NCBI RefSeq assembly: GCF_001904655.1
Contig: NZ_MRCC01000024.1
Location: forward strand, 1 to 59,282
DNA: 59,282 bases
Direction: 5' to 3'
DNA from: Chroogloeocystis siderophila 5.2 s.c.1
GTDB taxonomy: Bacteria > Cyanobacteriota > Cyanobacteriia > Cyanobacteriales > Chroococcidiopsidaceae
Part shown: positions 31,599 to 46,877 of the stretch, piece by piece
Numbering within the stretch: the first letter of the stretch is position 1
Layout: every line of letters begins with the position of its first letter
Position numbers and translations under genes: made by a program
Notes under the pieces: model-generated
Seen by the model: the letters and a program-made list of their open reading frames with translations, nothing else
What the model was told of the DNA's origin: nothing
Databases searched by the model: none

Positions 31599-32252
31599 TT
31601 TAAATCAGTACCAATGATAGGCTAATCTGTTCAAACTCTGAAGTATACAGGGATTAGCTCCTCAAAAATATTAAGTTCGCGTGCTGGTTATTTGCGAGGC
31701 AGGCTAGTTCGCCAAAATTTAACAAACATAATGCGTCTTCACTAAGTTTTGTTAAGGCTTAAATTTGCTAAGTACAGAATTATCTTTTTACAAACTTAAT
31801 TCTTCTACTTTTTCTAACTCTGCTTTATATTTCTTAATACTAAAGTTTTAGCAGTATTTGTTTCACACGAAGAACTGAACATAGTAAATTAGCCAAAAGT
31901 CATAAATACAGCAATCATCTCCAACGCTGTGTTGTTTGTCGAGCCTCTTAACCACAAGCACATTATCTCGATAGTAGTACGACTCAAAAGTAATTCTCTA
32001 TACACTAAAGTAGAGTAAATCTTTTAAATTTTATTTTTTTATAACCTAAGTTCAGCAAAATTAGGTAGTATAGTTTTGTAGCTTTAGTTGAACATTTTTT
32101 TCTATCAGCAGATTAATCTTATATTTTTCTTTACGAAAAGTATTACTTAGCTTCATCAAATCTTTAACAACAACTTCATCAAAAATTTAAGTACCGTCCG
32201 AGAACTTGCCGCATAAATACATACACTAGTGCTGAGAGGTTCATAGACCTTT

Positions 32253-32287
32253 TAAAATTAAGTTGTATGATAAAAAACTTAATTTTA
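32253..32287. repeat. 12-bp inverted repeat upstream of small ORF
   Basis: TAAAATTAAGTT (32253-32264) and AACTTAATTTTA (32276-32287) pair perfectly around an 11-base loop. It lies 22 bases before the ATG of the 48-codon frame, where it could be an operator or an AT-rich leader hairpin. Confidence 0.55.
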
Positions 32288-32309
32288 GAGTCGAGCTAAT
32301 CAGGAAAAT

Positions 32310-32456
32310 ATGATGAAAACCGTAGCTAATATGCAAACAGAAGCAATTGCTGATACGAAGCAATGGATGACTTTGAGCAAGGATAAAGCGCGACATTTTG
32401 TTCCGTATAAGTGCTGTTATTTGACCAGAATTGAGGCAAATTTCGTACTCGGATAA
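32310..32456 (+). CDS. Putative 48-residue protein, possible CopG-like fragment
   Basis: A short open frame with an AGGA ribosome-binding sequence 6 bases before the ATG. The product begins MMKTVANMQTEAIADTKQWM, and KQWMTL resembles KQWITF at the start of the ribbon-helix-helix protein encoded at 35665. After that point the resemblance stops, so it may be an independent small protein, the broken head of a paralogue, or chance. The 12-bp palindrome upstream would suit autoregulation. Confidence is low because the frame is so short. Confidence 0.3.
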   Translation: MMKTVANMQTEAIADTKQWMTLSKDKARHFVPYKCCYLTRIEANFVLG

Positions 32457-32629
32457 AAAAAAGATTTTGCAATTCTTTTAATTTTGTATAAGAGAATACA
32501 GTTTTTTTTGAGTTGGTATGTACATACTGTAATTGCACCTGAAGAACACCGAACATTTCAGTATATTTCCTGCCTACAGAAAAGCTAAGCGCTAAATAAT
32601 AACTACTTTCTCCAGTGTTTTACGCTGCG

Positions 32630-32670
32630 GGTTGTTCAAGAAGACACCATATGAGTGCACTTAAGCAACC
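32630..32670 (+). ncRNA. Covarying hairpin motif, copy A
   Basis: GGTTGTTCAAG (32630-32640) pairs with CTTAAGCAACC (32660-32670) with one mismatch and one G-U pair. Inside, CAC (32645-32647) can pair with GTG (32655-32657). The loop side keeps AAGACACC and GAGTGCACTT, exactly as in the copy at 35368-35402, while the stem bases change together between copies. This points to an RNA element rather than a DNA repeat. Confidence 0.5.
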
Positions 32671-33230
32671 TAAGTTAAGAGGATAGATCTGTATTAATTC
32701 AAAGCGTTCTATACCTCGTTATAACAGTGCTTGACGCGTTGCAAGTTATTGAAAATAATGCAAAAGTTGATTCAGTACTGACTCAACTAATTAGTAAGAG
32801 CGATCGCTAGTAGAATTTACAACAGCGTATTTGGAAGAGGAATTAAGAATACGCGTTTAATAAAAACAACTTTATAGTTGGATTATTATTTTTGTGCCTA
32901 TTTGAATTAAGCGCGTACGTTTTATTTCTTCGCTTGAGGATTATATATGTTTTTAATATAGAAATAATTTGTAATGTTTCGATAAACGTAGAACTCTATT
33001 TTTGGTTACCAAAGTTCGTACTTAGGATATGACAATCAAGCAACTAATTAAAGAGATTAATTTATTTAGTTTCTGGAAAATCTTTACCTAGTTTTGAAGT
33101 ATTCTAAAGCACAAGTTAATTAAAAACGTGCGTTATCGCGGAGTGTCTATAAGGTGGTGTGAATTTCGTGTTTAACTTGCAGTGTAAGGATCAATTCTTC
33201 TAGAGCAGTAATTTTTGTGAGAGGTTTCTA

Positions 33231-33644
33231 ATGCCTGGCAAACGTAGTAGTCGTAAAAATGTAACACGCTTTTTTTGCCCTTATTGCGAGCAGCGATTGT
33301 GGCGTAGAGGTGGAGAGAAATATCACTTATTTTATACAGGAGCATTAGAGATCCAACAAAATGTAAGTATGCCCCGCCAGAGCGCAGTGATGTTAGCAGC
33401 AAAAGGCGTGTATGTTGATAATAATGTTTGGATTGAAGAGTTTACGTGTGGTCAACACGGTAAAATGTGGTTGAAAGTTTGTCGGAAAGAAGATGGAAGA
33501 ACGGTGACTTCGCTAGCAACTCATAAAGACTGGAAAAGAACAAGTCGTACAATTCATCCTGAAACTCCTAACCCCTCGGTAAGCGAGTTTACTTACCGCA
33601 TGAGTCGTCAGACTTCGACAAAACTTATCTACCATAAAGAATAA
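33231..33644 (+). CDS. Conserved zinc-ribbon-like hypothetical protein
   Basis: A 137-residue basic protein of unknown function. The N-terminus has VTRFFCPYCEQRLWRRGGEK, a CPYC pair of zinc-ribbon type, and a further Cys is in EFTCGQHGKMWLKVC, so four Cys may bind one zinc. The segment NPSVSEFTYRMSR near the C-terminus looks like a conserved family signature. No signal peptide or membrane segment is present. It stands alone between two structured intergenic regions at the front of the EPS locus. A nucleic-acid-binding or regulatory role is a guess. Confidence 0.6.
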   Translation: MPGKRSSRKNVTRFFCPYCEQRLWRRGGEKYHLFYTGALEIQQNVSMPRQSAVMLAAKGVYVDNNVWIEEFTCGQHGKMWLKVCRKEDGRTVTSLATHKDWKRTSRTIHPETPNPSVSEFTYRMSRQTSTKLIYHKE

Positions 33645-33708
33645 TTTGGCACTTTGCAAAAAATATCTACTACTACAGAGCTTAGCTAAATCTTCTGATT
33701 TTTTCTGC

Positions 33709-34620
33709 CTATAGCTTTGGTGAATGATGTAATTGATACATTTTATGCGCGTTGTGAAACCATTCATAAAGCGAAGTCAAGCGATTTTGATGTAATGCCA
33801 AGCTTGCACTACTAAGATTGTAGTTATATGCTATCTCATCTAAAAAAGCCTGTGTGGCATGTAAACAAAGATGCGCAGTATCTCGTAAACGGGTAAAATT
33901 AATACTTAATTCTGGACTACTAGGATGCGAATGAGAAAAGTAAGAATAATTAAGTTGCAGATCTAACCAGCTTGCTGGTATGACTCTCAAGCTGAGTTGC
34001 CTGGCAGGACTACATATAAAGTTAAGCCCTAACACAGCTGCGCGCTTAGAAGTGGTATCCGCCTCAGGAGAACCCCATTTTATTTTGGGTTTTGAACTTG
34101 AAGAATATCGAGTAGGATACTCTTTATGCGTAGCAATAAACACCTCTAATTTTTCTTTTAGCTTTATTAACTCTAGACTTTTAGGAGACTCTTTCAGTTC
34201 CTCATTAATGTTAACCAGTAAACTGCAAGCTTGCTCAATCGAAGTAGAAATGTATTCATAGAAAAGAGCAGGTTCTGCTTCCTCGAGCAAATACATTAAC
34301 GTAATAGTAGCATCACATAACTGCTCTACTAAAAAATTAACTCCTACCTGATCTTGTTGGTATATTTCTAATAAAACGTAGGAATAATAGTGGCTACACA
34401 TTTTGGTATACAAGCCTAGAATAGCCAAGTTGAAAGGCTCATCCGCAAATTCTTTAATAGCTTTAACCGCTGATTTGATTTGTTCCAAATACTGATGTAG
34501 GGTTTGTGCAGTTTTGAGAAAGGCATCAGCAAAGGCTTGCTCAGAACTTTCAAGCGAGTCTAAGTTCGGCAAATAAAATTGAACTTGATTAGACGGCAGT
34601 TTTGTATTCATCAAAGCCAC
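33709..34620 (-). CDS. Helical protein of unknown function (DUF5677-like)
   Basis: A 303-residue, mainly helical, soluble protein. Segments such as GLYTKMCSHYYSYVLL, LVEQLCDATITLMYLLEE and ARQLSLRVIPASWLDLQLNY suggest a two-domain alpha bundle of the type seen in DUF5677 proteins, but this resemblance is weak. No catalytic motif or signal peptide was found. It lies on the opposite strand to the EPS genes and is flanked by long non-coding stretches. Reported as a genuine gene because of its length and compositional bias. Confidence 0.55.
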   Translation of the reverse strand: MALMNTKLPSNQVQFYLPNLDSLESSEQAFADAFLKTAQTLHQYLEQIKSAVKAIKEFADEPFNLAILGLYTKMCSHYYSYVLLEIYQQDQVGVNFLVEQLCDATITLMYLLEEAEPALFYEYISTSIEQACSLLVNINEELKESPKSLELIKLKEKLEVFIATHKEYPTRYSSSSKPKIKWGSPEADTTSKRAAVLGLNFICSPARQLSLRVIPASWLDLQLNYSYFSHSHPSSPELSINFTRLRDTAHLCLHATQAFLDEIAYNYNLSSASLALHQNRLTSLYEWFHNAHKMYQLHHSPKL

Positions 34621-35664
34621 AGATCAGCTACTTTACATTTTGTGTAGCACACGTCAAAGATGATAGAGTCGAGAGAATGTCCCGCCTTTGACCAAAATCA
34701 CACCTTATAGCTAACAAACATCACATTAAGCACAAATCTTAGAGATTTAATTGGTCAAAGTGTAGCTTACAGATGTGAAATTTGAGATGTACAACACTCA
34801 CCAGAGATATGGTTCTCTAAAAAAAATCTACTTGTATTTACATCTTACCTAAGATAGGAACGAAAATAGAACTCAGCCCGTCCTACCTTCTACGATCAAT
34901 CACTCCTGCCCTCCCCAACGTCTACCAAAAGATAGGAATTACATTGAGTTACAACCTTTTTGAAATCCAAAGGTTTAGATACCAAGTTTTTCATTACAAT
35001 ATACCAATAATAATCATTCCTAATCTGAAGCATAATTTCACTAAGTATTGAAACCTAACCTAAGTAGGTAGAAATTCAACAGAATACAATTACCGTAGAT
35101 TTGCCTATTAATTCGTTTCCGTGTTTTCTTTCTTAATAAATAAGATAGGCAATTTAAATGTCCAAGAGCTTATCACTAGACGAAATCTTCGTCAAACGGA
35201 AATATAATGACTTATTTCTGGAAATTTAGGTAAAAGTCAGGATTTTGTAGCGTAGAATACAGCATAAACGTTTTTATTTATATATAATTATGTCTCATAA
35301 ATTAAGTTTTCAAGGTAACACACATTAACATAACTTAAAATTGCCAGCGGAGTACCTTCGCTGTAGTCTGCTAAAGAAGACACCGAGAGTGCACTTGAGC
35401 AGCCTAAGGAGAGGGGAAGAGTATGCCTTTTTGAGGTGAAGCTTGTGTTTGCGAAATAATACTTTCTCTGGACAACTGCAAGCTTTTTAGCAGTAATGCA
35501 GAGAATAAAAAATTAAATTAGACAACTATAGCTCTTTATCAACAGCTCATATTCTCTAGTATTAGAGGTTATGGGTTGCTTTTTTTTTACATAAGTTGCC
35601 GCGTTGATTTCTGGCGGCTTCCCGCTGGTGTATTAACAAAGACAACGATAGGAACCCTTTTTTC
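34621..35664. other. Gene-poor region before the RHH gene
   Basis: About 1 kb without a plausible coding frame. It contains an 8-bp inverted repeat, TTGCCTAT (35101-35108) with ATAGGCAA (35145-35152), and the second hairpin motif at 35368-35408. A GAGAGGGGAAGAGTAT stretch (35409-35424) can pair loosely with ATACTTTCTC (35459-35468). Promoters for the RHH gene and possibly the EPS operon should lie here. Confidence 0.45.
35368..35408 (+). ncRNA. Covarying hairpin motif, copy B
   Basis: CTGCT-A-AAG (35368-35376) pairs with CTT-G-AGCAG (35394-35402) around a loop keeping AAGACACC and GAGTGCACTT. Relative to copy A the outer stem changes TTG to CTG on one side and CAA to CAG on the other, preserving pairing. 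It lies 257 bases before the ribbon-helix-helix gene and 623 bases before the first EPS glycosyltransferase gene. Confidence 0.5.
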
Positions 35665-35856
35665 ATGTATATAGATGTGTCAAACAAACAGAAGCAGTGG
35701 ATTACGTTCAAAGTTTCAGAAATGGAAATGAGCGCACTTGAAGCTTATTGCCAGCGAACCGAAAGAACCAAGACCGATGTTTTGCGAGAATTAATCCGTA
35801 AGTTGCCAACTTATACAAATTCATCTAATCCTCGCAATTCTTTTAATAGTCAGTAA
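35665..35856 (+). CDS. CopG/ribbon-helix-helix DNA-binding protein
   Basis: A 63-residue protein with one RHH domain: beta strand KQWITFKVSEM (about 10-20), helix A SALEAYCQRT, then the turn and helix B TKTDVLRELIRKL. RHH proteins dimerise and bind operator DNA with the paired strands. No toxin gene is next to it, so it is more likely a regulator than an antitoxin. It begins after long non-coding DNA carrying hairpin copy B and lies directly before the EPS locus, which it may regulate. Confidence 0.7.
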   Translation: MYIDVSNKQKQWITFKVSEMEMSALEAYCQRTERTKTDVLRELIRKLPTYTNSSNPRNSFNSQ

Positions 35857-36030
35857 GTAGTTTCTTAATGGCATTGCGGTACTAGCGCAGCAAGATTTGT
35901 CATTACTTATTGCTTTAACACATCAATCCACAAACTCATTTTCCACAGGATTGCGCGAAGCGATGTTTGCATTCGCTTACCGCCTGATCAAAACAGCCTG
36001 CTTCAACTTTCGCTAATTGCGGGTAAGACA

Positions 36031-37050
36031 ATGACTCAAGTACTTCAACAGCAATCAACACCTTCTAGCATTGAAAAGACACCACTAGTTAGTGTCATTA
36101 TTAATAATTACAACTACGGTCGGTTCTTGACTCAAGCCATTGAAAGTGTTTTAAACCAGAGTTACTCAAACTGGGAATTGATCGTTGTTGATGATGGGTC
36201 AACAGACAATTCTCGCGAAATTATTGAAGCTTACAAAGAGAAACTGATACCGATCTTGCAAAAGAATGCAGGACAAGGAGAGGCTATTAATACAGGAATT
36301 GCACACGCTCAAGGCGAAATTATCAGTTTTTTAGATGCAGACGACTACTTTGCGCGCGACAAACTAGAAAAAATCGTAGCAGGGTTTTGCGAGCATCCGG
36401 AATGGGTACAAATTTCTCATTGCTGGATTTCAGTCAACAGTGAAGGTCAAACTGTTGGTCGAGGCTCGACGATCTTGAGTCAAGGAGATGTACGCAATCT
36501 ACTATTACGCTGGGGCAGATATGCAATGGGAATTACATCAGGACTTGCATATCGTCGTGCAGTTTTACAAAAAGTTTTGCCTATTCCCACGAGAAAAGCG
36601 GCTGCTGCTGATACATATTTAACAGTAGCTGTTCCTTTTTATGGTGAAGTAGGGTGCATTAATGAACCGCTAATGTTTTATCGCATTCATGGTAGTAACA
36701 AACAAGCGCATAACGACAACGTACCCTATCTAATTCAAGAGCGCGAGGATACCGCAACTTTTATCAATCAAGCCTCTGCCAAGGTGGGATTAGCCGAGCG
36801 ATTTGATCTTCTCAAAGACGTCGATTATCGCAGTCTCACAGCACTACAACAGGGTGGCGTACCTTTAACAGAAGCGATAGAAATTCTTTGGTTGTCATTG
36901 AGAGAAAGCATTGCAATTGGCAGAAGTGCAAGAGATACTCTCGAAAGGGTATTGCGGCGTGGAATTTGCACACTGTTTCCTTCCGAAGGTAGGGCTGTTC
37001 TTCGTTTAGGACTGCGTGGCTACTTGCGTTTCAAGTTATTCGGTCAATAG
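36031..37050 (+). CDS. Family 2 glycosyltransferase
   Basis: A GT-A inverting glycosyltransferase adding a sugar to the EPS repeat unit. The N-terminal VSVIINNYNYGRFLTQAIESVL and VVDDGSTDNS bind the nucleotide sugar, and SFLDADDYF (about 103-111) supplies the metal-binding DxD. The 339-residue length fits. It starts the EPS operon and is separated by 12 bases from the Wzc-like gene, so they should share a transcript. Donor and acceptor are unknown. Confidence 0.9.
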   Translation: MTQVLQQQSTPSSIEKTPLVSVIINNYNYGRFLTQAIESVLNQSYSNWELIVVDDGSTDNSREIIEAYKEKLIPILQKNAGQGEAINTGIAHAQGEIISFLDADDYFARDKLEKIVAGFCEHPEWVQISHCWISVNSEGQTVGRGSTILSQGDVRNLLLRWGRYAMGITSGLAYRRAVLQKVLPIPTRKAAAADTYLTVAVPFYGEVGCINEPLMFYRIHGSNKQAHNDNVPYLIQEREDTATFINQASAKVGLAERFDLLKDVDYRSLTALQQGGVPLTEAIEILWLSLRESIAIGRSARDTLERVLRRGICTLFPSEGRAVLRLGLRGYLRFKLFGQ

Positions 37051-37062
37051 CTGAGAAAGAAT

Positions 37063-39129
37063 ATGAACCACTTAGTCAATATTATCCGCAGACACTGGTT
37101 ACCTTTGTTGCTGTTGAACGGTGTCGTAGTTGCCGCCACACTCTATGCAATTATTCACACTAAAACAACTGTTTCTCCAGTGTGGAAGGCTAATGCGGAA
37201 TTAAATCTTCCTCAACCGTCTAATAGATTAGATGCTAGTTTAGGAACTTTAGGTCAATTGCAGAATACAGGTTTTGGTTTCTCTAGAGAAGTTAATCCTT
37301 TGCAAATTCAGCTGTCTATTCTAACTAGCGACACGGTAATGGAGCGAGTATTGGCAGTTGATCCAGAAAAAAATGCGTATTTAAGGTTAAGTGACTACAA
37401 AGCCTTATTTACTGCGACTCCCCAGCAGCAGTCAACAATTATTGCAGTAGAAGCTCGAGCTTCTAGTCCAGACATAGCGTACAAACGCTTAAATAATTTA
37501 ATCAACATCTATCAGCTACGTCTGAATGAATTACGCCGTCAGGACACGAATGTTCGCGAGGAGTTTTCTCAAGAGGATTTAAAAAGAGCGCAGCAGCAGT
37601 TAGCTGAGTCTCAGGTTGCTTTAGCCAACTTTCAACAGCAGACAGGGCTAACCGATATTGTGGAACAAACGCGATCGCTCATCGGACAGATCAGCAATCT
37701 CAGAACAACTTATGCAACGGTTTTAGCGCAAGCTGGGGCAAATCAAACGCAAGCGAATGTAGCGTCGCAACGTTTGGGTATGTCCCCACAACAAGCAATG
37801 AATTCGCTGCGCTTAGGTGAAAATAAAGAGTATCAAGCGACTCGTCAGAAATTATCTGAGGTTGAAACGGCTTTAGCGGAAGCTCGCAGCCGATATACTG
37901 ACGAGAGTCCACAAGTACAATCGCTGCTATCGAGCCGCCAAGAGCTACAGCAGATCATGAATCAACAGATCGCGACAGCTGTACCAGGAGCAAGTGCGAA
38001 TGACATCGATTTGACGTTAGGTGGCAATGGCGGCAGAGACAGTCGCATCGAGATGATTTCACAGCTAATCACTGCGCAGAACTCAGCTTCTGGCTTGCAG
38101 CAACAAGCGAACTTGATTGCGAATGAAATCAATAGACTCAATACAGAGTTGAATAATATTACGAGAAATCGCGGTCAATTGTTAGATCTACAGCGTCGGT
38201 ATGAAATAGCTGAGGGAATTTACAAAAGTATCACGGCTCAAATTGAGCAAGCCAAAACGAATCCTTTCAATGTTTATCCCAATATTCAAACACTAGATGC
38301 ACCAAGTGTCGATCCCAAACCGGAAGAACCTAGCAGCAGACTCGCTGCACTAGGTGGTATCCTTGCCGCGCTGTTTGGCAGCATAAGCTTAATCCTCTTT
38401 TTAGAAAATCGCAATCCAATGCTCAAGCCAGAAGATCTACAGCAGGTGGAATTTCCCATCCTGGGTCGCATTTCGCGTCTCAGACCTCTAGACATGGAAA
38501 GATCTTTGTCAGCAGAGGTGCCTATCGAGTTGCAGAGGCTGGCTTCAGCTGTATTGATGCTAGAACACCAACGCTTACTGATCACTAGCTCTACTGCTGG
38601 AGAAGGTAAAACAACTGTTACCTTAGGACTTGCATTAGCATTGGTTAACTGTGGCTTCCGAGTACTGATTGTTGATGGCGACCTTAAGCAAGCAGAACTC
38701 AGTCGGCGGTTAGGTCATCCTAAGGCAAACACAGAGGATAGACACGCTCCAGTTTCTATATCTTTGGGGCTTGATTTACTACCTGCACCCGCAGTGCCAA
38801 GCGAAAAAATTGCTGAATTCTTCGCCCGTGGCAGCTTTGCACAGAATCTAAATCACATTCAAACCTCCGGTGGTTACGATTACGTGTTAGTTGATAGTCC
38901 ACCGCTTGGGTTAGCTAGCGAGACTAATTTGATGAGTGCAGTGGTTCAAAATGTTTTGTTTGTTGTGCGTGCTGGGAAGAGCGATCGCTATTCGGTTCTG
39001 GATAGCTTTGAACAACTTTCGCGCCACAATGCTCACATTATGGGACTAGTCGTTAACTGTGTCGAGTCATCAGCAACAGGATACCGCTACGGACGTCAAC
39101 GCGAATTAATAATGGAAACTGAGGCGTAA
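37063..39129 (+). CDS. EPS chain-length regulator with BY-kinase domain (Wzc/GumC type)
   Basis: This 688-residue inner-membrane protein controls polysaccharide chain length and export. An N-terminal helix (about 13-32) and one near 425-445 flank a large periplasmic coiled-coil region (Wzz and GNVR domains, residues about 40-420). The cytoplasmic BY-kinase domain has Walker A (STAGEGKTT, 510-518), A' (VLIVDGDLK) and B (YVLVDSPPLG). The C-terminal tail has only two tyrosines (YRYG), unlike the Tyr-rich cluster of Wzc, so autophosphorylation there may be limited. It is followed by the polymerase gene. Confidence 0.92.
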   Translation: MNHLVNIIRRHWLPLLLLNGVVVAATLYAIIHTKTTVSPVWKANAELNLPQPSNRLDASLGTLGQLQNTGFGFSREVNPLQIQLSILTSDTVMERVLAVDPEKNAYLRLSDYKALFTATPQQQSTIIAVEARASSPDIAYKRLNNLINIYQLRLNELRRQDTNVREEFSQEDLKRAQQQLAESQVALANFQQQTGLTDIVEQTRSLIGQISNLRTTYATVLAQAGANQTQANVASQRLGMSPQQAMNSLRLGENKEYQATRQKLSEVETALAEARSRYTDESPQVQSLLSSRQELQQIMNQQIATAVPGASANDIDLTLGGNGGRDSRIEMISQLITAQNSASGLQQQANLIANEINRLNTELNNITRNRGQLLDLQRRYEIAEGIYKSITAQIEQAKTNPFNVYPNIQTLDAPSVDPKPEEPSSRLAALGGILAALFGSISLILFLENRNPMLKPEDLQQVEFPILGRISRLRPLDMERSLSAEVPIELQRLASAVLMLEHQRLLITSSTAGEGKTTVTLGLALALVNCGFRVLIVDGDLKQAELSRRLGHPKANTEDRHAPVSISLGLDLLPAPAVPSEKIAEFFARGSFAQNLNHIQTSGGYDYVLVDSPPLGLASETNLMSAVVQNVLFVVRAGKSDRYSVLDSFEQLSRHNAHIMGLVVNCVESSATGYRYGRQRELIMETEA

Positions 39130-39146: not shown

Positions 39147-40502
39147 GTGGTGAAATATATGGCTCAGATGTATCACACTAAATCTTTACGCCGAAGAAGC
39201 AATAAACTATTTGCCAACGGATTCTGGCTCCGTTGGCAAGCTTTAACTGTAGGTGAGCGTTTTGTCTGCGCTAACATCATTTTAATTCCTGTTTGGTGGG
39301 TTGCTGGTCTTTACGATTACTTACCAATACTTTTATTGTTGAGTGTTGGACTATACGAATGGCGACAACAGGGAAAAATACAATTAACACGCCCTAGTTT
39401 GCCCGTTATTGCGGCGATCGCCTTTGGTATTTATCAACTCGCAAGAGTCGCGATTTTCTACCACGAACCTAGAACTATCAAATTTTTTGACGTTGTTAGT
39501 GTCGTTTTTTGCCCGACGATTTGGCTTTGGTATATCCAAAGTAAAAATATTCGGCTACGCATGGAACCAATTGCTTGGGCTTGTACGATTAATGTTCTAC
39601 AAATGCTTGGGTTATGGTTCTTAATTCAATTTGTTTTGCCAGCATCGCTTTTTCCCTTACCTACGATCTATGCACTCGTTACAGGTGTTACGAGTAAAGC
39701 TTTAGCAAGCATCTTGTCGCCTTTTCGCACGATTGACGGAAATGTTGCTGGATTTTGCCGTTGCCAATTGTTCTTCATCTTTCCATCCTTTTTTGCTTTA
39801 TTTGCTGGGTTTCTAGGCTTAGTTGCTTTAGAAATTAAAAGTCGTCTTTGGTCATGGCTAGTCTTCGGAGCCTCTGTCTTCTTGATCGTGCTGAGTGCAA
39901 CGCGAGCCGTTTGGGTGGCATTTCCACTTGTTTTGGGTTTGCGTTATCTATTTAGTAACTATGGAAGACGCTGGGTTCCTGCGGTTGTGTTTGGTTTAAT
40001 CGCAGCCGGAAGTTTCCTGATATTTTCGCTTCCGGTCTTTACTGAGCTAGTTTTGAATAACTTCACTGATTTAGCAGACACAGTTAATAAAGTGCGAGAA
40101 GGTTCAACGGATACTCGCTTGGAAATCTACAGACAAACTTGGCTGGGAATTCAAGAAAATCCTTTGTGGGGACACTTGACAACAGGACCAACAATCAACG
40201 CTTATGCTCAAGATTATGAGGTAGTAGGCTCCCACAGCGTTATCTTGGGAAATCTACTTTATCTCAATGGCATGGTAGGTACTGGACTGTTTCTGACTTT
40301 TTGGTTTTCGCTACTTTATTGGATGTATAAAACGCGTGCCGGAAGACCTTTACTCTGTTTTGGTTTGTGGTTTTTGTACACTTTTGTTGCCTTTACTATG
40401 GATACAGCATATGGAATGTCCATATCATCGCTGCCTATTTTGGTGAGCATCGCTATACGTAATCCTCATCCAAAGTTCGCGCAAGGAGTACGTCATGCGT
40501 AA
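39147..40502 (+). CDS. O-antigen ligase/polymerase-like membrane protein (Wzy type)
   Basis: A 451-residue protein with about 11 membrane helices and a large loop in the C-terminal half (about 300-360) that includes TDTRLEIYRQTWLGIQENPLWGH and GSHSVILGNLLYLNGMVG. These are typical of the O-antigen ligase/polymerase family, which joins lipid-linked repeat units. The reading frame opens with GTG codons at 39147 and 39150; ATG at 39159 is a good alternative. Its last 8 bases overlap the next glycosyltransferase gene, which implies translational coupling. Confidence 0.8.
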   Translation: MVKYMAQMYHTKSLRRRSNKLFANGFWLRWQALTVGERFVCANIILIPVWWVAGLYDYLPILLLLSVGLYEWRQQGKIQLTRPSLPVIAAIAFGIYQLARVAIFYHEPRTIKFFDVVSVVFCPTIWLWYIQSKNIRLRMEPIAWACTINVLQMLGLWFLIQFVLPASLFPLPTIYALVTGVTSKALASILSPFRTIDGNVAGFCRCQLFFIFPSFFALFAGFLGLVALEIKSRLWSWLVFGASVFLIVLSATRAVWVAFPLVLGLRYLFSNYGRRWVPAVVFGLIAAGSFLIFSLPVFTELVLNNFTDLADTVNKVREGSTDTRLEIYRQTWLGIQENPLWGHLTTGPTINAYAQDYEVVGSHSVILGNLLYLNGMVGTGLFLTFWFSLLYWMYKTRAGRPLLCFGLWFLYTFVAFTMDTAYGMSISSLPILVSIAIRNPHPKFAQGVRHA

Positions 40503-41679
40503 GCTCCTCATTGTGCCAGTATTTCATCATGCTTTGGGAGGAGCGACAGTTTCTCTGTCAATGACACTTAAAGGATTTCAGCAATGCGGTGCATTAAATC
40601 AATTGTGCGTCCTACTGAGAGCCGATTCTTTAATGGAGCAGTATCTTTGTCAAGCAGGTTATGAGTCGTGTTTGCATCTTATCCCTGAGCGCAGTCTTGG
40701 TCAGTTCATGAAGCAAGCACTGCACTGGGTAAATCAACAACCTCCAGATTGGCCAGTCCTGCTAGAAAACTGTGTTGCTCGTCAGTTGTTACCGGCGATG
40801 GCGCTGGCTGCACCTAGACTTCGTTGGAGTCGTCGTCCCATCTACCTCATCTTTCGTGACTTAGCCTACTCGCCGCATCCTTTAGGAAGTTTATTGCGAA
40901 AGTTTACTTTAGCAAGTCTTGCTCCCCGTGCTATTTGCAATTCTCAATTCACTGCTAAGCACATCCGCAAGCTCGTTCCGTATATCGAGGAAGTACTTTA
41001 TCCTCCGGTTGATCTAGAGCGGTTTAATGATCGCCCTTCGGTTAAACCTCCACCAGCAAATTTACAACCGATTCTCAACTCTGGAGCACGAATCATTTTA
41101 ACGCCTTCACGAATAAGTAAATCCGAAGACAATATTAATGATAAAAACTTGCGATCGCTTTTGCTTGTTTTAGCTCAACTGAAATCTAGGGGTCAAAATT
41201 ATCATGGAGTTGTGATTGGACAAGACACGTCTTCCGATCAACAGAACATCCGAGCTTTACTTGCGCAAGCTAAAGACTTAGGAGTAACAGATCGATTCAC
41301 AATTTTACCTCCTGTGTTTGCGATCGAGGATTACTACAAATATGCCGACGTCGTGATGACGCTTGCTCCTCGCGAACCTTTTGGTCGTACCATTGTCGAA
41401 GCGATCGCTTGTGGTGTACCAGTTGTTGGTAGCCAAACTGGCGGTATTGGGGAAATTCTAGGTAATTTTGCTCCTGAATGGACGGTAAACCCATATAATC
41501 CAGCGGCTGCAGCTGAAATAATTATACAGATTGCTCATAGTCCTAATAGCTCAAAACTTCTTGCCCAAGGTCAACGTTGGGTTGAAACACATTGCAGTGT
41601 TGCTAGTTACGCGCACCGAATCATGGAAATTACAGGTTTGGATTCCACCAAATTACCTGAAACTGAATTAGTTTACTAA
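40495..41679 (+). CDS. Family 4 (GT-B) glycosyltransferase
   Basis: A 394-residue retaining glycosyltransferase of the GT-B fold. The C-terminal half holds ILTPSRISKSEDN and the donor-binding motif APREPFGRTIVEAIACGVPVVGS, with the E-x7-E pair of GT4 enzymes. The N-terminal half is family-typical but has no fixed motif. It overlaps the Wzy-like gene by 8 bases (ATGCGTAA), and the next glycosyltransferase gene follows after about 21 bases. It should act on the lipid-linked repeat unit at the cytoplasmic membrane face. Confidence 0.88.
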   Translation: MRKLLIVPVFHHALGGATVSLSMTLKGFQQCGALNQLCVLLRADSLMEQYLCQAGYESCLHLIPERSLGQFMKQALHWVNQQPPDWPVLLENCVARQLLPAMALAAPRLRWSRRPIYLIFRDLAYSPHPLGSLLRKFTLASLAPRAICNSQFTAKHIRKLVPYIEEVLYPPVDLERFNDRPSVKPPPANLQPILNSGARIILTPSRISKSEDNINDKNLRSLLLVLAQLKSRGQNYHGVVIGQDTSSDQQNIRALLAQAKDLGVTDRFTILPPVFAIEDYYKYADVVMTLAPREPFGRTIVEAIACGVPVVGSQTGGIGEILGNFAPEWTVNPYNPAAAAEIIIQIAHSPNSSKLLAQGQRWVETHCSVASYAHRIMEITGLDSTKLPETELVY

Positions 41680-41700
41680 AGCTTGAGGTGAGTGTTAGCT

Positions 41701-42813
41701 ATGAAAAATATTGGCATCTATCGAAGAGTTTTTCCTCTCACTTCAGAAGCTTTCATCCAAGAGCAGTCTCACAACATGATGCGGTATCAACCGACGTTCA
41801 TTTCTAACACCCTTCTGCAAGAAGTTCCGTTCAACAGTATTGCGGTGAGTCAAAATGACTTACTAGGTATTAAACAAGCTACTTTTCTACTGACGCGATC
41901 GCCAAAGTTATTTAATCGTCTTGATACCAGCACCTTAGCTTTAATTCACGCTCATTTTGGTCCTGATGGTGTTTATGCTATACCTATCGCTGAAAAGTTA
42001 AAAATTCCTTTATTAGTCACTTTTCATGGCTATGATATTACTATCTCTCGCACAGCTTTGTGGCGTAAAGGTAAGTTCTTGTACTATCAATTAATCTTTC
42101 ATGAAGAAGAACTAAAAAGAAAGGCTGCAAAATTTATTGCTGTATCCAATTTTATAAAGAATAAACTCCTCGAAAAAAAATATCCGAACGAAAAAATTAT
42201 TCAGCATTATATAGGTGTCGATACAGAAAAATTTACTCCCGGTAAGAAAGCAAGTGAACGATACATTTTATGTGTTGGTAGGCATACACAAAAAAAAGGT
42301 ATAGACACCTTGTTACACGCCTTTGCAAAAATTACTCATAAACATCCTGAAGTTTCGCTGATTCAGGTAGGAACAGGTAATTTAACGAATACACTATATA
42401 ACCTAACAAAAACTCTAGATATCGCGCATCGCGTCCGATTTCTAGGTGCACAGCCACATGAAGTCGTACTAAATTTGATGCGTGGTGCAGAGGTTTTTGC
42501 CTTAGCAAGTCAAACCGCAGAAAATGGAGATTGTGAAGGCTTACCTATAGTGATTAATGAAGCTTCTGCGTGTGGTATACCAGTTGTCTCTACTTGGCAT
42601 AGTGGTATTCCTGAAGCAATTTTAGACGGCGAGACAGGTTTTCTTGTAGCAGAACAAGACGATATAAATTTAGCAGAAAAGCTAGATTTACTGCTATCTG
42701 ACCGTGCCCTGGGTGAAAAGATGGGACAGCGTGGACGCGAATTTATGTGTGAGATGTTTGATATTCGGAAGCAAACTTCTAAGTTAGAAGCTATTTATGA
42801 TTCGCTTAGTTGA
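41701..42813 (+). CDS. Family 4 (GT-B) glycosyltransferase
   Basis: A 370-residue GT4-type enzyme beginning MKNIGIYRRVFPLTSEAFIQ, with HAHFGPDGVYAIPIAEKL in the acceptor half and the donor motif CEGLPIVINEASACGIPVVST in the C-terminal half. The ATG at 41701 follows a TTGAGGTGAG ribosome-binding sequence and is preferred to GTG at 41692. The gene is more AT- and Lys-rich than the preceding one, so the two were probably acquired separately. Confidence 0.88.
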   Translation: MKNIGIYRRVFPLTSEAFIQEQSHNMMRYQPTFISNTLLQEVPFNSIAVSQNDLLGIKQATFLLTRSPKLFNRLDTSTLALIHAHFGPDGVYAIPIAEKLKIPLLVTFHGYDITISRTALWRKGKFLYYQLIFHEEELKRKAAKFIAVSNFIKNKLLEKKYPNEKIIQHYIGVDTEKFTPGKKASERYILCVGRHTQKKGIDTLLHAFAKITHKHPEVSLIQVGTGNLTNTLYNLTKTLDIAHRVRFLGAQPHEVVLNLMRGAEVFALASQTAENGDCEGLPIVINEASACGIPVVSTWHSGIPEAILDGETGFLVAEQDDINLAEKLDLLLSDRALGEKMGQRGREFMCEMFDIRKQTSKLEAIYDSLS

Positions 42814-42897
42814 TAATTTAAAAATCTCATCTCATACTATTTACCTTTTATTGATTATCTAACAGCTAAGTTTCGCGAAGACTTGCTTTTATACTAT

Positions 42898-43047
42898 ATG
42901 TGTCAACCAAGCATTAAGTATATTGCAGAACACTTTGCTTTTAGCAACGCAGCTTGTCAAGATGAAGTTCTTTATGGTGTACTCATATCTAATTTAATGA
43001 ATGGCGATCGCTATTATCAAAAGAAGTTAGTTGTCATGATGTCATGA
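42898..43047 (+). CDS. Short open frame overlapping the lyase start (ATGA)
   Basis: A 49-codon frame, MCQPSIKYIAEHFAFSNAA at the N-terminus, whose stop overlaps the start of the polysaccharide lyase gene in the string ATGA at 43044-43047. The same frame stays open upstream to a stop at 42822, reading a coherent-looking peptide without a start codon, so this may be the 3' end of a truncated gene rather than a small gene. The overlap would couple its translation to the lyase. Function unknown. Confidence 0.35.
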   Translation: MCQPSIKYIAEHFAFSNAACQDEVLYGVLISNLMNGDRYYQKKLVVMMS

Positions 43048-43904
43048 AATTAAAGTTTTGGTTCAGCTTGGTTTTCAGTACGACTGTTTTGTTGTCTTTA
43101 GCGGGACATACATCACGAGCAAATGTTATTGACTCAGTAACAGAAGATATTAGCCAAGCTAGAGCTCGTGAGTACTCTAACTCCAAAGGAGGGGATGTTT
43201 GCAATAGACTAAAAAATGTTACAGATAAGACTATTGCTGGACGACAAGCTTTTTTCCATTGGGTAGCTCGTTGTGGAGAACGTTCCGAATTAGCAATGAG
43301 ACGCACTGCGATTGGCAATACCTATTGGTATGGTTGGTCAATTTATATTCCCTCTGACTGGCAAGATGCTCGGGAAGGATATGATATTGTCAATCAATGG
43401 GCTATATTCCCAACTAAAATAAATATGAAAAAAGCGTGTGGAGCAGCAGGCTCTTACATTGCTATCAGCAAAAATACGCTCACCTTTGCTTTACAACGTC
43501 AGGGAGATACAGAAGAAGTAACTTGCACTAAGTACCCTTTGATGGAAGTTGCCGAGATGAGGGGAAAGTGGGTAGACTTTGTGATGCACGTGAAATGGAC
43601 AGGCGACACAAATGGATTTTTGAAGCTTTGGATGAAGAGTAAAAACGAACCTTACCAATTGAAGATAAATTATACTGGTTCCACATATTGGAATCATGCC
43701 AAAACCGGACCATATTTTAAGATGGGATTGTATAAAGGCGACCCAGATTTTGCAGGACCAGCACCACGGTATTTGTATACCGCACAGTATCGTCTAGGCA
43801 ATGCTGACTCTAACTTCCAAGCAGTTTCTCCGATTCAGGAATCAATCGCTTGTCGATACGTTCCTAACATGGCGCAACTTTTTGGTAATAAGTGCATTAA
43901 TTAA
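43044..43904 (+). CDS. Secreted polysaccharide lyase-like protein
   Basis: A 286-residue protein with a signal peptide (cleavage after SRA near 26), then a heparin-lyase-like jelly-roll domain (PF14099 type). Diagnostic stretches are AFFHWVARCGERSELAMRR, GNTYWYGWSIYIPSDW, KWVDFVMHVKWTGDTNGFLKLW and GPYFKMGLYKGDPDF. Such enzymes cleave uronic-acid-containing polysaccharides by beta-elimination; here it probably trims or remodels the EPS in the periplasm or outside. It is a close homologue of the protein encoded on the opposite strand at 46984-48402 but lacks its extra C-terminal domain. Confidence 0.8.
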   Translation: MKLKFWFSLVFSTTVLLSLAGHTSRANVIDSVTEDISQARAREYSNSKGGDVCNRLKNVTDKTIAGRQAFFHWVARCGERSELAMRRTAIGNTYWYGWSIYIPSDWQDAREGYDIVNQWAIFPTKINMKKACGAAGSYIAISKNTLTFALQRQGDTEEVTCTKYPLMEVAEMRGKWVDFVMHVKWTGDTNGFLKLWMKSKNEPYQLKINYTGSTYWNHAKTGPYFKMGLYKGDPDFAGPAPRYLYTAQYRLGNADSNFQAVSPIQESIACRYVPNMAQLFGNKCIN

Positions 43905-43969
43905 TTTGATTTAAAACCCACTTGTATCTAGTAGCGTATACTTTGCAGAAGTTTCAATGAGTTCATAGG

Positions 43970-43999
43970 AAAGAGGCACTATAGTTGCCTCTTTTTTTT
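43970..43999 (+). terminator. Rho-independent terminator after the lyase gene
   Basis: AAAGAGGC (43970-43977) pairs with GCCTCTTT (43987-43994) and a run of eight T begins within the stem end. It lies 66 bases after the stop codon and separates this transcript from the PssD/PssE genes. Confidence 0.88.
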
Positions 44000-44053
44000 A
44001 GAAATAATGTTGTGCGCTTAATTTACATTACGTATCTTTTCGGAGTTAAATAC

Positions 44054-44503
44054 ATGAAGCTACTATTGGTCTGCAATCCAGGAGGACACTTCGCTACTAT
44101 GATGGGTCTAAAAAGTTTTTGGTCTGCCTACGCAAGAGAATGGGTCACTTATCCGAAATGGGATACACAAAGCTTGTGTGATAAAGAGATAGTGAATTGG
44201 GTAGAAATGCAAGAAGCACGTATGTTAGGCAAAGCATGTATTAATTTTACTAAAGCTTTAACTATTTTAGATAAAAGTAAGCCGGATTTAGTTATATCTA
44301 CTGGAGCAAGTCTGGCTGTGCCTTTTATCTTAGCTAGCAAGGGTTTTGGCATTAAAACAATGTTTATTGAAAGCATTACTCGTGCTCATGAATTAAGTTT
44401 GAGTGGAAAACTTGTCTACAATCTAGTAGACGAGTTTTATGTACAATGGCCTGAGTGTGTACAGCGATATCCCAAAGCTCAATACAAAGGTGTTATTGCT
44501 TAA
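44054..44503 (+). CDS. Alg14-like glycosyltransferase subunit (PssD/Cps14F type)
   Basis: The membrane-anchoring partner of a two-part GT1-type glycosyltransferase. The protein starts MKLLLVCNPGGHFATMMGLK, with the GGH motif of Alg14-like proteins, and has KPDLVISTGASLAVPFILA and MFIESITR in the usual order. An upstream in-frame ATG at 43985 lies inside the terminator, so the ATG at 44054 (149 residues) is chosen. Its partner gene follows 120 bases later. Together they probably add the second sugar of the repeat unit. Confidence 0.88.
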   Translation: MKLLLVCNPGGHFATMMGLKSFWSAYAREWVTYPKWDTQSLCDKEIVNWVEMQEARMLGKACINFTKALTILDKSKPDLVISTGASLAVPFILASKGFGIKTMFIESITRAHELSLSGKLVYNLVDEFYVQWPECVQRYPKAQYKGVIA

Positions 44504-44623
44504 GCTGCTAGCAATCAAGTGCTTTTCTCGGTATTAAACTTCTACTACCAGACTACTTATTGCAATGATGATTGTAGTTATTTTCTTGGTAGTTACAGGA
44601 GGGTTTCGGCAAAGGTTTATTCC

Positions 44624-45118
44624 ATGATTATCTTCACACTTGGAACTATATTCTTTCCTTTTGACCGCGCAGCTAATTGGTTACAGATTCTTTTGCAGGA
44701 AGAAATTATTATTGAGCCAGTGTTATTTCAGCATGGTGCTACATCGGTAACTCGACTAAATCATCCTTTACTTACGAATGTAGCTTCACTAACAACTGAT
44801 GAAATGCACGCAGCTGTAAAACAAGCATCTTTGGTAGTTTCTCATGCAGGACAAGGTTCGACACGAATGTTAGCAGGGATGGGAGCAGGTTTCGTACTTA
44901 TTCCTAGACTAAAACGCTACGGAGAACATGTTGACGATCACCAGCTGCTTTTTGCGCGTGCTGTCGAGAGATTTGGCGTACATTACTGCACTGAACTTGA
45001 GCAATTAATTCAATACATCAAACAACCTCCATCCCCTTTGCGCAAAAAATTGTTTGATGCTCCTTTACTAGCAGAACACTTGATGACACGCTATCGAGTC
45101 TTGAACCTGCAAAAGTAA
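44624..45118 (+). CDS. Alg13-like glycosyltransferase subunit (PssE/Cps14G type)
   Basis: The catalytic partner of the Alg14-like protein. The 164-residue product starts MIIFTLGTIFFPFDR, the family's N-terminus, and holds ASLVVSHAGQGSTRMLAGMGAGFVLIPR, the nucleotide-sugar-binding HAGxGS motif of Alg13/GT28 enzymes, followed by HVDDHQLLFARAV. The ATG at 44624 is chosen because upstream in-frame residues from 44519 do not match the family. The pair order Alg14 then Alg13 is the same as in rhizobial and streptococcal capsule loci. Confidence 0.88.
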   Translation: MIIFTLGTIFFPFDRAANWLQILLQEEIIIEPVLFQHGATSVTRLNHPLLTNVASLTTDEMHAAVKQASLVVSHAGQGSTRMLAGMGAGFVLIPRLKRYGEHVDDHQLLFARAVERFGVHYCTELEQLIQYIKQPPSPLRKKLFDAPLLAEHLMTRYRVLNLQK

Positions 45119-45166
45119 CTCCACAATTGAAAATTCATTGTGTAACATTCTTGATTTAAAAGAATA

Positions 45167-46111
45167 ATGAACAATACTCAACCACGAGTCAGTATTGGTA
45201 TGCCTGTGTACAATGGTGCAATCTATCTTAAATCAGCATTAGATTCACTATTAAATCAGACATTCGCAGATTTTGAAATTATTATTTCTGATAACGGTTC
45301 TACTGACCAAACCGAAGAAATTTGTCGAGCGTATGCTGAGCAAGACTCGCGGATTCGCTATTATCGTAACGAGCAAAATCTTGGCGCTGGCTGGAATTTC
45401 AACCGGGTGTTAGAGCTTGCACATAGCGAGTATTTTAGATGGGCTTGTCATGACGATATATGCGCTCCAGAACTCTTAGAGCAATGTGTTAAAGTACTAG
45501 ACTCTTATCCTTCGATTGTTCTGTGCTACCCAAAAACGATCGTCATTAATGAACATGGGCAGCAAGTAGAAAAATACGTTGATGGTTTTGATCTGCGATC
45601 GCCAAAGCCCCACGAAAGGTTTGCCCAATATCTTAAACTTGTTCGTTTTGGTCATGGCTGTCACCCAATCTTTGGCTTGATTAGGATCGAGACATTGAAA
45701 CGCACAGCGCGCATGGGAATTTATCCTTCCTCGGATCTCGTTCTACTAGGTGAACTAACGCTTCATGGAGAGTTTTATGAAGTGCCTGAATATCTTTTTT
45801 TCAAGCGAGATCATTCTAAGAACTCGGTACGAGCACATCGCGCATTCAAAGATCGTATTGCTTGGTACGATCCAGCAAAAAAAGGAAAATTGCACTTAAC
45901 AAGATGGAAGTGGTTTCTTGAGTATCTTACAGCAATTCAACGCGCTCAACTGAGTTGGAATGAAAAAGCACGTTGCTATCTCCAAATGACAAAATGGGTA
46001 AGTTGGAATTCAATCTTTCTGACAAAAGATTTGATAAAAGCTACACTTTGGCCTTTTCTAAAACCCTTTATTAACCTTGAAGTAGGTCAGAAGGTTAGTA
46101 GAAATGCTTAG
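45167..46111 (+). CDS. Family 2 glycosyltransferase
   Basis: A 314-residue GT-A enzyme. VSIGMPVYNGAIYLKSALDSLL and ISDNGSTDQTEEICRAY form the donor site, and ACHDDICAPE contains the HDD metal motif used in place of DxD. The C-terminal domain has several basic and aromatic stretches and one hydrophobic patch that may sit at the membrane. It lies 48 bases after the Alg13-like gene and probably adds a further repeat-unit sugar. Confidence 0.88.
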   Translation: MNNTQPRVSIGMPVYNGAIYLKSALDSLLNQTFADFEIIISDNGSTDQTEEICRAYAEQDSRIRYYRNEQNLGAGWNFNRVLELAHSEYFRWACHDDICAPELLEQCVKVLDSYPSIVLCYPKTIVINEHGQQVEKYVDGFDLRSPKPHERFAQYLKLVRFGHGCHPIFGLIRIETLKRTARMGIYPSSDLVLLGELTLHGEFYEVPEYLFFKRDHSKNSVRAHRAFKDRIAWYDPAKKGKLHLTRWKWFLEYLTAIQRAQLSWNEKARCYLQMTKWVSWNSIFLTKDLIKATLWPFLKPFINLEVGQKVSRNA

Positions 46112-46157
46112 CTATTAGTAATGCTCCCGTGTAAATCAATTTCAAAGGGAAGTAGAT

Positions 46158-46877
46158 ATGGCATTTAAACTGAGCCTCAAGTCAGCACCACTTTTAAAAA
46201 CACTTGCTGATGACAGAAAGCCTAACTCTCTATCTAGTAAATTAAGACAAAAAAGATTTGCTGTATTTACAAAACTTGTAAAAAATCATTGCGAAAAGAC
46301 AAAGGGTTTAGTAAGAATTATTGATGTAGGTGGCACACCTACAGTTTGGGAAAGGAATTTACCTTTGCTAAAACAGCTATGTCCAGTAACTCAGGTTAAA
46401 GTCGTAGTTGCTAATATCAAAGACTATCGAACTAGTTGTATAGATATTAACTGTGTTATTGCTAATGCCACAAAAATGAACCAGTTTAAAGACAAAGAAT
46501 TTGATATTGTTTTTTCAAATTCTGTCATTGAGCATGTTGGTGATTTTGAAGCACAAAAAGCAATGGCTAACGAAATTCTAAGAATAGGTAAAGTATATTT
46601 TGTACAAACACCAAACTTCTATTTTCCTATAGAACCACATTTCCTTTTTCCTTTTTTTCAATTTTTCCCTCTTCCATTAAAAGTTTGGTTAATTCGTAAT
46701 TTCGATTTAGGATGGCGGAGGAAAGCACCTACCTTGGATACTGCACTTGTACTTATTAATTCTGTAAAGCTCTTGACCAAGAAACAGCTAATCAGTCTCT
46801 TTCCCCAAGCTAATCTTTTTGAAGAAAAGATTTTTAGTTTAACTAAATCTTTTATTCTGTATGGCGAATCTCCCTAG
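46158..46877 (+). CDS. Class I SAM-dependent methyltransferase
   Basis: A 239-residue methyltransferase. The SAM motif is RIIDVGGTPTVWERN (about 54-68), with an acidic ribose-binding region and the post-motif segment EFDIVFSNSVIEHVGDFE near 115-132. It then has QTPNFYFPIEPHFLFPFFQF, typical of glycan-locus methyltransferases of the type-11/23 class. Probably it O-methylates a sugar of the EPS. The gene is AT-rich like its neighbours and is convergent with the lyase on the opposite strand. Confidence 0.82.
   Translation: MAFKLSLKSAPLLKTLADDRKPNSLSSKLRQKRFAVFTKLVKNHCEKTKGLVRIIDVGGTPTVWERNLPLLKQLCPVTQVKVVVANIKDYRTSCIDINCVIANATKMNQFKDKEFDIVFSNSVIEHVGDFEAQKAMANEILRIGKVYFVQTPNFYFPIEPHFLFPFFQFFPLPLKVWLIRNFDLGWRRKAPTLDTALVLINSVKLLTKKQLISLFPQANLFEEKIFSLTKSFILYGESP

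Follow-up and report, generated by a model that had tools for sequence, protein, structure and literature searches.

The EAR element of the Bacillus eps operons and the epsC RNA of Rfam (RF01735) are the same element, and the HK022 put RNA consists of two hairpins that act in cis on RNA polymerase and are not known to need a protein partner. EAR-type, LoaP and RfaH systems serve polysaccharide and antibiotic operons (PMC7819879, PMC7858274). EAR has been reported to antiterminate at intrinsic terminators and lies after the second gene of its operon (PMC7858274). LoaP occurs in Firmicutes, Actinobacteria and Spirochaetes; its gene adjoins the target operons, it requires a 5' leader and acts on intrinsic terminators, and the neighbours of LoaP-type NusG paralogues are often polysaccharide genes (PMC7858274, PMC7819879). 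In the RfaH/ops system (JUMPstart, Rfam RF01707), ops is a 12-nucleotide (nt) pause element and RfaH mainly counters Rho (PMC7819879). The wcaG RNA motif (Rfam RF01761), known from marine metagenomes and cyanophages, is a candidate leader RNA of exopolysaccharide genes (PMC2864571). A folded RNA of about 85 nt associated with polysaccharide and other biosynthetic operons, together with a small zinc-ribbon-like protein proposed as its partner, is described here from a 59,282-nt stretch of DNA of the cyanobacterium Chroogloeocystis siderophila 5.2 s.c.1 (contig NZ_MRCC01000024.1, forward strand), which as a whole is termed the window.

The capsule and sheath polysaccharides of cyanobacteria matter for desiccation tolerance, for biofilms and for the form of colonies, and we know of no account of how very long polysaccharide operons are expressed without Rho and Gre factors. 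Cyanobacterial cells are devoid of both (PMC5100998). PipX is a cyanobacterial cis polarity suppressor with a NusG-like KOW domain that acts in cis on pipY, and its account, in the text available, mentions no leader RNA of the present kind (PMC7344720); in another source, the term "antitermination" refers to nusG (PMC9769825). No such cyanobacterial system was found in the published literature, judged by titles and the beginnings of abstracts among the matches listed, with subscription journals largely outside the search.

Two hairpins reported in the initial annotation of the window are present at 32630-32670 and 35368-35408. Their loop strings, AAGACACC and GAGTGCACTT, are the same in both copies, and the stem GGTTG/CAACC (32630-32634 / 32666-32670) of the first answers to CTG/CAG (35368-35370 / 35400-35402) in the second. 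Both hairpins represent the second hairpin (P2) of a longer two-hairpin RNA of about 85 nt, in which a 5' hairpin (P1) of the CAGCG...CGCTG type stands directly before P2 in most copies. Conservation across copies is strong in the P2 core (about GAGAAGACACC-NN-GAGUGCRCUY), and a 3' element, AGGAUAAGUGUGUCU, follows the hairpins after 10-25 nt in many copies and is weak in both window copies. The element was searched for with successive covariance models (R1, R2 and R3). Copy 1 extends over 32611..32696 on the forward strand (P1 32613-32627, P2 about 32629-32671), upstream of the zinc-ribbon-like gene, and scores 77.2 bits with R2 (E = 1.9e-16) and 77.8 bits with R3. Copy 2 extends over 35343..35430 on the same strand (P1 35345-35363, P2 about 35364-35406), upstream of a polysaccharide run, and scores 74.3 bits with R2 (E = 1.1e-15) and 76.9 bits with R3. 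Four copies were found in this genome by the covariance models and three by a strict pattern, which was positive in 6 of 100 genomes of relatives (the present genome counted in); the reversed control pattern gave 0. Two further copies on contig 31 are located within a same-strand run, upstream of an alpha/beta-hydrolase-like gene and a 3-deoxy-D-arabino-heptulosonate 7-phosphate (DAHP) synthase gene.

The structure of the RNA is supported by covariation across the wider family. When 31 diverse copies were aligned with MAFFT, 86.8% of the pair cells were standard pairs (at most 44.4% in slid controls), two-sided changes occurred in 18 of 23 pairs (7.9 +/- 1.9 in shuffles), and 50 cells carried two-sided changes versus 14 +/- 4 in shuffles. 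These copies were picked by hand, P1 was cut off in some since its length varies, and the 23 pairs include six of a proposed pseudoknot, three of them changing on both sides. Among 81 copies aligned to the covariance model, two-sided changes were found in 16 of 17 pairs (225 cells versus 66 +/- 11), in an alignment that was fitted to the model and leans towards the structure. The nine closest distinct copies alone gave two-sided changes in 3 of 14 pairs, a value equalled in 145 of 500 shuffles and suggestive at most; the covariation between the two window copies thus gives a hint, for which the wider family supplies the proof.

A three-pair helix, CAC/GUG, inside the P2 core is 98.9% paired and never shows a two-sided change. 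The proposed H-type pseudoknot pairs the loop AGACAC with a 3' GUGUCU; none of 100 shuffled tails paired as well, 226 of 300 tails swapped between copies did, and 75.3% of the cells are paired, with two-sided changes in 3 of the 6 pairs. Its complementarity is conserved without support from covariation, and the pseudoknot is a possible feature of the element.

At gathering scores, Rfam 15 (4227 families, including epsC, JUMPstart and wcaG) gave no match in the window, and at E <= 10 it gave two weak matches in 32200-36000, neither of them over an element. The initial annotation had likewise not recognized the motif and had proposed a selected RNA element with covarying stems; the model searches have since returned many matches with compensatory changes and a shared genomic context. 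It is strongly supported that the hairpins are a structured RNA selected by evolution, outside the known Rfam families. The family extends beyond the two copies, and the flanks of the copies are less alike than the element itself: copies 1 and 2 are identical at 52 of 75 aligned positions within the element, at 68 of 134 upstream and at 60 of 146 downstream, where 30 random window pairs gave a mean identity of 0.44 (range 0.35-0.59). Because the flanks stand at near-random identity, plain DNA duplication of the window copies was rejected.

Two details of the first description did not hold. The palindrome GTGCAC, suggested as a kissing or dimer contact, was rejected in that role because it is not conserved among relatives, many of which have GTGAAC or GTGCGC. 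The accessory box AAATAATA followed by ACTTTCTC was confirmed at 32594 and 35454, on the upstream side of copy 1 but on the downstream side of copy 2. The AAATAATA box varies within the genus, is absent at the matching places of two genomes of the next genus (G004 and G014), and was rejected as a component of the element, since it is a genus-level feature only. Another block, AGTATATTTCCTGCCTACA, at 32560-32578, about 50 nt 5' of copy 1, is nearly the same in four relatives and is possibly a promoter.

In the family to which the window belongs, R3 (E <= 0.001) was positive in 12 of 19 genomes, the same 12 found earlier by R1, with 2 to 14 copies per positive genome (in G008, one copy is counted twice where contig ends overlap). 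Of 388 genomes drawn from across the class, 6 were positive by R1 (E <= 0.001), 16 by R2 and 18 by R3 (both at E <= 0.01). The distribution includes Gloeocapsopsis crepidinum, Aliterella atlantica, Aphanocapsa lilacina, two Gloeobacterales bins, an Acaryochloridaceae bin and a Snowella bin. A Chloroflexaceae bin and a Gracilibacteria bin among the records look like mis-binned cyanobacterial contigs, and no match was found in phage records. The hairpins are doubled at a spacing of about 80 nt in Chroococcus FPU101 and Aphanothece hegewaldii (loci L209 and L210), and five copies lie within 6 kb, between small genes, at locus L160 of genome G075.

The position of the element relative to genes was determined for 69 non-redundant copies, kept out of 87 places after near-identical ones had been dropped. 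This count was made without same-genome duplicates, both G010 copies, L093, the first of three hairpins in L210 and the copies at contig ends (L051 3925, L052, L053, L056 4238, L157, L161 and L162), and open reading frames (ORFs) that overlapped an element by more than half its length were disregarded (four copies). The next downstream ORF of at least 120 amino acids was co-directional with the element in 67 of 67 cases, two copies having none in view, and the upstream ORFs were on the same strand in 35 cases and on the opposite strand in 34. A fixed downstream strand together with an even upstream ratio indicates a leader element and not a free small RNA, and that the element is a cis-acting leader RNA is regarded as nearly certain. 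The distance to the first gene has a median of 327 nt and reaches 1.2 kb. Elements are found at the start of, or inside, same-strand gene runs, the position and strand that processive antitermination calls for. In the window, copy 1 precedes the zinc-ribbon-like gene at 33231, and copy 2 precedes a polysaccharide run that starts at 36031.

The zinc-ribbon-like gene itself is the first same-strand downstream gene in 10 of 56 cases. The other 46 first genes include, by Pfam family, nine Glycos_transf_2, five Glycos_transf_1, four Bac_transf, three Poly_export and three NTP_transferase matches (the families overlap), and the remainder include an aromatic amino acid lyase, DAHP synthase, and AMP-binding and PP-binding proteins. 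Among 78 further downstream genes, 15 match AAA_31 (a domain of Wzc-type proteins), 10 GNVR, 6 Wzz and 5 Wzy_C; these counts are illustrative, the 78 having been drawn from 94 by removing three zinc-ribbon-like genes and 13 others by hand with no fixed rule. An upstream control comprised 37 of 56 genes, from which zinc-ribbon-like genes, genes of the downstream set, the 303-amino-acid gene of the window described below and one doubtful ORF had been removed; no glycosyltransferase family occurs among the 25 Pfam rows listed of 56 for these 37 genes.

The gene at 33231..33644 (forward strand) encodes a small zinc-ribbon-like protein of 137 amino acids, the proposed partner of the RNA. The protein (MPGKRS..CPYC..C..H..NPSVSEFTYRMSR) is basic at its start and carries a CPxC knuckle followed further on by C..H, and its tail, NPSVSEFTYRMSR, is conserved. 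It matched nothing in Pfam or NCBIfam above cut-off, several of the weak matches being zinc ribbons; a PDB sequence search gave three weak matches (best E 0.42), and PHROGs gave weak matches only, to families of unknown function. The AlphaFold model has a mean predicted local distance difference test (pLDDT) score of 77.8 and is confident in the middle.

The protein was found at 100 bits or more in 19 of the 388 genomes, the next best genome reaching 72 bits and some relative (E <= 0.001) occurring in 142. All RNA-positive genomes fall inside these 19 (16 of 16 by R2 and 18 of 18 by R3 at E <= 0.01), with hypergeometric p values of 1e-25 and 5e-30, respectively, in which kinship is ignored. 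Counted by genus, 14 of 160 are RNA-positive, all within 15 protein-positive genera counted by hand (p 3e-19). Of the 18 genomes positive by R3, 16 had supplied copies for its training (the exceptions being G131 and G375, the latter weak at E 0.0023); R2 had been trained on the family plus G030, G188 and G218, so that 11 of its 16 genomes are independent. Within the family, the RNA and the full-length protein occur in the same 12 of 19 genomes, and G005, with a 97-bit relative only, has no RNA. A search that started from the protein found the RNA in the flanks of 19 of 31 protein loci. The RNA and the zinc-ribbon-like protein are very probably a functional pair.

Gloeothece verrucosa PCC 7822, which lies outside the training set, was entered through its protein WP_013334326.1 (47.8% identical). 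R3 placed an element at 14213-14300 (+) of locus L225 (E 9.4e-11). Downstream of it, with its first gene at a distance of 757 nt, is an operon that is publicly annotated as a polysaccharide operon (glycosyltransferase, tyrosine autokinase, ATP-binding cassette export). R3 placed a second element at 11663-11759 (-) (E 1.1e-5), before a divergent gene annotated as N,N-dimethylformamidase-subunit-like.

A second, shorter homologue of the zinc-ribbon-like protein (129.5 bits) is encoded in the Chroogloeocystis genome at G000:C9:34664-34972 (L181), and no RNA element was found in the surrounding 12 kb. Remote relatives of at most 72 bits are widespread in cyanobacteria, including Synechococcus/Cyanobium records, and 123 of the 388 genomes carry relatives under 100 bits. 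The RNA element was not found at three such loci that were checked (L215-L217). Remote relatives without this RNA may serve another RNA or another function.

A 303-amino-acid protein that is weakly DUF5677-like (Pfam 2.4e-5, below cut-off) is encoded at 33709..34620 on the reverse strand, tail-to-tail with the zinc-ribbon-like gene, and is a candidate third component. Among 80 genomes chosen by hand, relatives were found in 15, comprising 15 of the 29 with the zinc-ribbon-like protein and 0 of the 51 others (p 1e-8, kinship ignored); the other 14 zinc-ribbon-like-bearing genomes have no relative. The tail-to-tail arrangement is also present, by coordinates, in G112, G131, G167 and G218, and the G131 relative, 37% identical, lies near the zinc-ribbon-like gene. 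It is possible that this protein belongs to the system as its third component.

The RNA and its partner protein together suggest an RNA-protein switch for the reading of long operons. In this reading, which explains the observations best, the leader RNA would be transcribed where long polysaccharide runs and some nonribosomal peptide synthetase/polyketide synthase or other biosynthetic runs begin, in some cases within such runs, and also ahead of its own partner gene. The nascent RNA would fold into P1 and P2, and the conserved P2 core would be recognized by the zinc-ribbon-like protein of about 137 amino acids. The RNA-protein complex would then modify RNA polymerase, which would read through the intrinsic terminators of leader and operon (processive antitermination); without the protein-bound RNA, transcription would tend to stop in the leader or the operon. 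The binding of the protein to the RNA, RNA polymerase as the target and the read-through are steps that we infer, and antitermination as the mechanism is given an even chance. The occurrence of copies inside gene runs and the large first-gene distances favour a processive effect over a local one.

The full proposal, which we hold tentatively and at slightly less than even confidence, is a two- or three-part cyanobacterial antitermination system unrelated to NusG, N, Q and put. It would comprise a leader RNA of about 85 nt, a zinc-ribbon-like protein without a recognized fold that loads onto RNA polymerase at the RNA, and, in some lineages, a DUF5677-like accessory protein. It would range from Gloeobacterales bins to Chroococcidiopsidaceae and Pleurocapsales-named records and act on surface-polysaccharide and other biosynthetic operons in Rho-less cells.

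An intrinsic-terminator-like hairpin (-17.5 kcal/mol, followed by nine T) is located at 35542..35588 on the forward strand, about 110 nt after copy 2 and before the operon. It was identified by a purpose-made scan and missed by a simpler one, and a hairpin is present at this place in four relatives. Among 60 leaders of 60-1000 nt (51 once near-duplicates were dropped), terminator-like sites of -10 kcal/mol or better were found in 16 of 51 versus 10 of 134 strands of divergent intergenic controls (Fisher p 9e-5), and six sets of shuffled leaders carried 1 to 5 each. A Rho domain was found in 0 of the 19 family genomes, the Rho control being positive in 9 of 14 named genomes. One NusG place was found in 17 of the 19; G011 has two pieces of one gene and G018 none, both being incomplete genomes. 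The zinc-ribbon-like protein had no NusG match in the Pfam search. With one NusG place and no Rho domain, Rho-dependent polarity and NusG paralogues seem unavailable to these cells. Following the leader terminator, a block TTGCCGCGTTGATT.CTGGCGGCTTCCCGCTGG with a GCCGC/GCGGC hairpin at 35596-35630 is conserved in the window and four relatives.

Several results weigh against processive antitermination by this pair. No more than 16 of 51 leaders have terminator-like sites, and antisense strands carried them in 11 of 51 (p 0.37), the sense and antisense counts being 19/17 at -8, 11/8 at -12 and 7/6 at -15 kcal/mol. By the simpler scan, neither window leader has a forward-strand terminator, nor does the leader of PCC 7822, and for the leader of copy 1 the purpose-made scan was negative as well. 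The terminator hairpin that follows copy 2 shows no more covariation than shuffles do, and the T-run of the leader hairpin is poor in two genomes of the next genus. A fold search of the protein model against solved (PDB) and viral structures gave no match at E <= 0.001. Twelve of the 31 protein loci, some on short contigs, have no RNA in view by R2 or R3, and in G119 the protein is present and no RNA was found by R3. Seven family genomes have neither the RNA nor the full-length protein; five are less than 90% complete, and only G007 and G015 are above 90%. R1 matched one genome outside the protein-bearing set, G372 (E 4.4e-4), a match rejected as chance since it lies within an ORF, has no 3' element and was reported by neither R2 nor R3. 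Of the 37 upstream control genes, 4 contain AAA_31 and 2 contain Wzz.

The guesses at function in the initial annotation were a riboswitch, an attenuator or a small RNA, of which the attenuator comes nearest, the riboswitch is kept as a rival and the small RNA is disfavoured by the strand test. A leader that responds to the protein at one site only, as a single attenuator or through mRNA stability or translation, with a partner that autoregulates and does not travel with RNA polymerase, is rather unlikely. It would account for the co-occurrence of partner and RNA, for the protein gene standing first downstream in 10 of 56 cases and for the terminator-like site that some leaders have between the RNA and the first gene. 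However, a median of 327 nt and up to 1.2 kb to the first gene is far for translation control, and copies also lie between genes of same-strand runs, as in G075 with its five copies and on contig 31 of the present genome.

An improbable alternative is a riboswitch in which the P2 core would bind a small ligand (e.g., a second messenger or sugar nucleotide), the protein gene being merely one target. The highly conserved internal loop, the position in leaders of related operons and the terminator-like hairpins in some leaders agree with it. However, the protein gene often lies in divergent orientation to the RNA and the target operon (G188, G206, G112, G131, G144, G167, G178 and G338), and yet the presence and absence of the two match by genome, so that a partner fits better than a target.

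A free-standing, multi-copy family of small RNAs is more doubtful still, even though positive family genomes carry 2 to 14 copies, T-runs stand behind the 3' element in several copies and a terminator-like hairpin follows copy 2 after 110 nt. A free small RNA gene would have no reason to face the same way as the gene that follows it, as the element does in 67 of 67 cases, and a trans-acting small RNA was rejected for this tie of orientation. Chance similarity or a plain DNA repeat, which two copies 2.7 kb apart in one window might suggest, is refuted by the covariation, the restriction of R2 and R3 matches to protein-bearing genomes and the unlike flanks, and its probability is negligible.

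The genes downstream of copy 2 are those of a long polysaccharide run. Between leader and operon, a small ribbon-helix-helix-like ORF of 63 amino acids (35665..35856, forward strand) matches Pfam RHH_1 (E 5e-4) with 20.4 bits, just under the cut-off of 20.5. The first large gene of the run (36031..37050, forward strand) encodes a family 2 glycosyltransferase (Pfam Glycos_transf_2, 2.6e-35). It is followed at 37063..39129 on the same strand by a gene for a Wzc/Wzz-type polysaccharide co-polymerase/tyrosine-kinase-like protein, whose G004 relative, 76% identical, matches AAA_31 and GNVR. The rest of the same-strand run (39147..46877, from the ORF list) appears, from the sequences of its products, to encode a probable polymerase/ligase membrane protein, glycosyltransferases and others. 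Within the long run of 36031-59135, the gene at 46984-48402 is on the opposite strand and by eye resembles that at 43044-43904.

The element and its partner add an RNA family and a protein family absent from Rfam, Pfam and NCBIfam. With a conserved RNA, a small protein and, in some leaders, a terminator-like hairpin, operon expression becomes directly testable in culturable strains.

The proposed system would work like EAR, the LoaP leader and RfaH-ops, but by Rfam (no match) and by domain content (no NusG domain) it belongs to none of them. It resembles EAR as a cis RNA of exopolysaccharide operons; EAR differs in belonging to another phylum and in lying after the second gene, whereas the present element has no Rfam match, and we know of no dedicated zinc-ribbon protein for EAR. 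Like LoaP, it has a gene for the proposed factor adjoining target operons and a leader, and it would act on intrinsic terminators, but LoaP is a NusG paralogue, whereas the zinc-ribbon-like protein has no NusG match and 17 of 19 genomes have one NusG place. The likeness to RfaH/ops lies in a short leader element before long operons and one proposed specialized factor, and the difference in an 85-nt folded RNA and a Rho domain in 0 of 19 family genomes. The wcaG motif shares the association with exopolysaccharide genes and differs in that Rfam gives no match in the window. PipX is alike as a cyanobacterial operon-polarity factor and is set apart, by description, by its KOW domain and its cis action on pipY. 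The HK022 put RNA and lambdoid antitermination, also compared by description, share with the present system a two-hairpin RNA and differ from it with respect to the protein partner.

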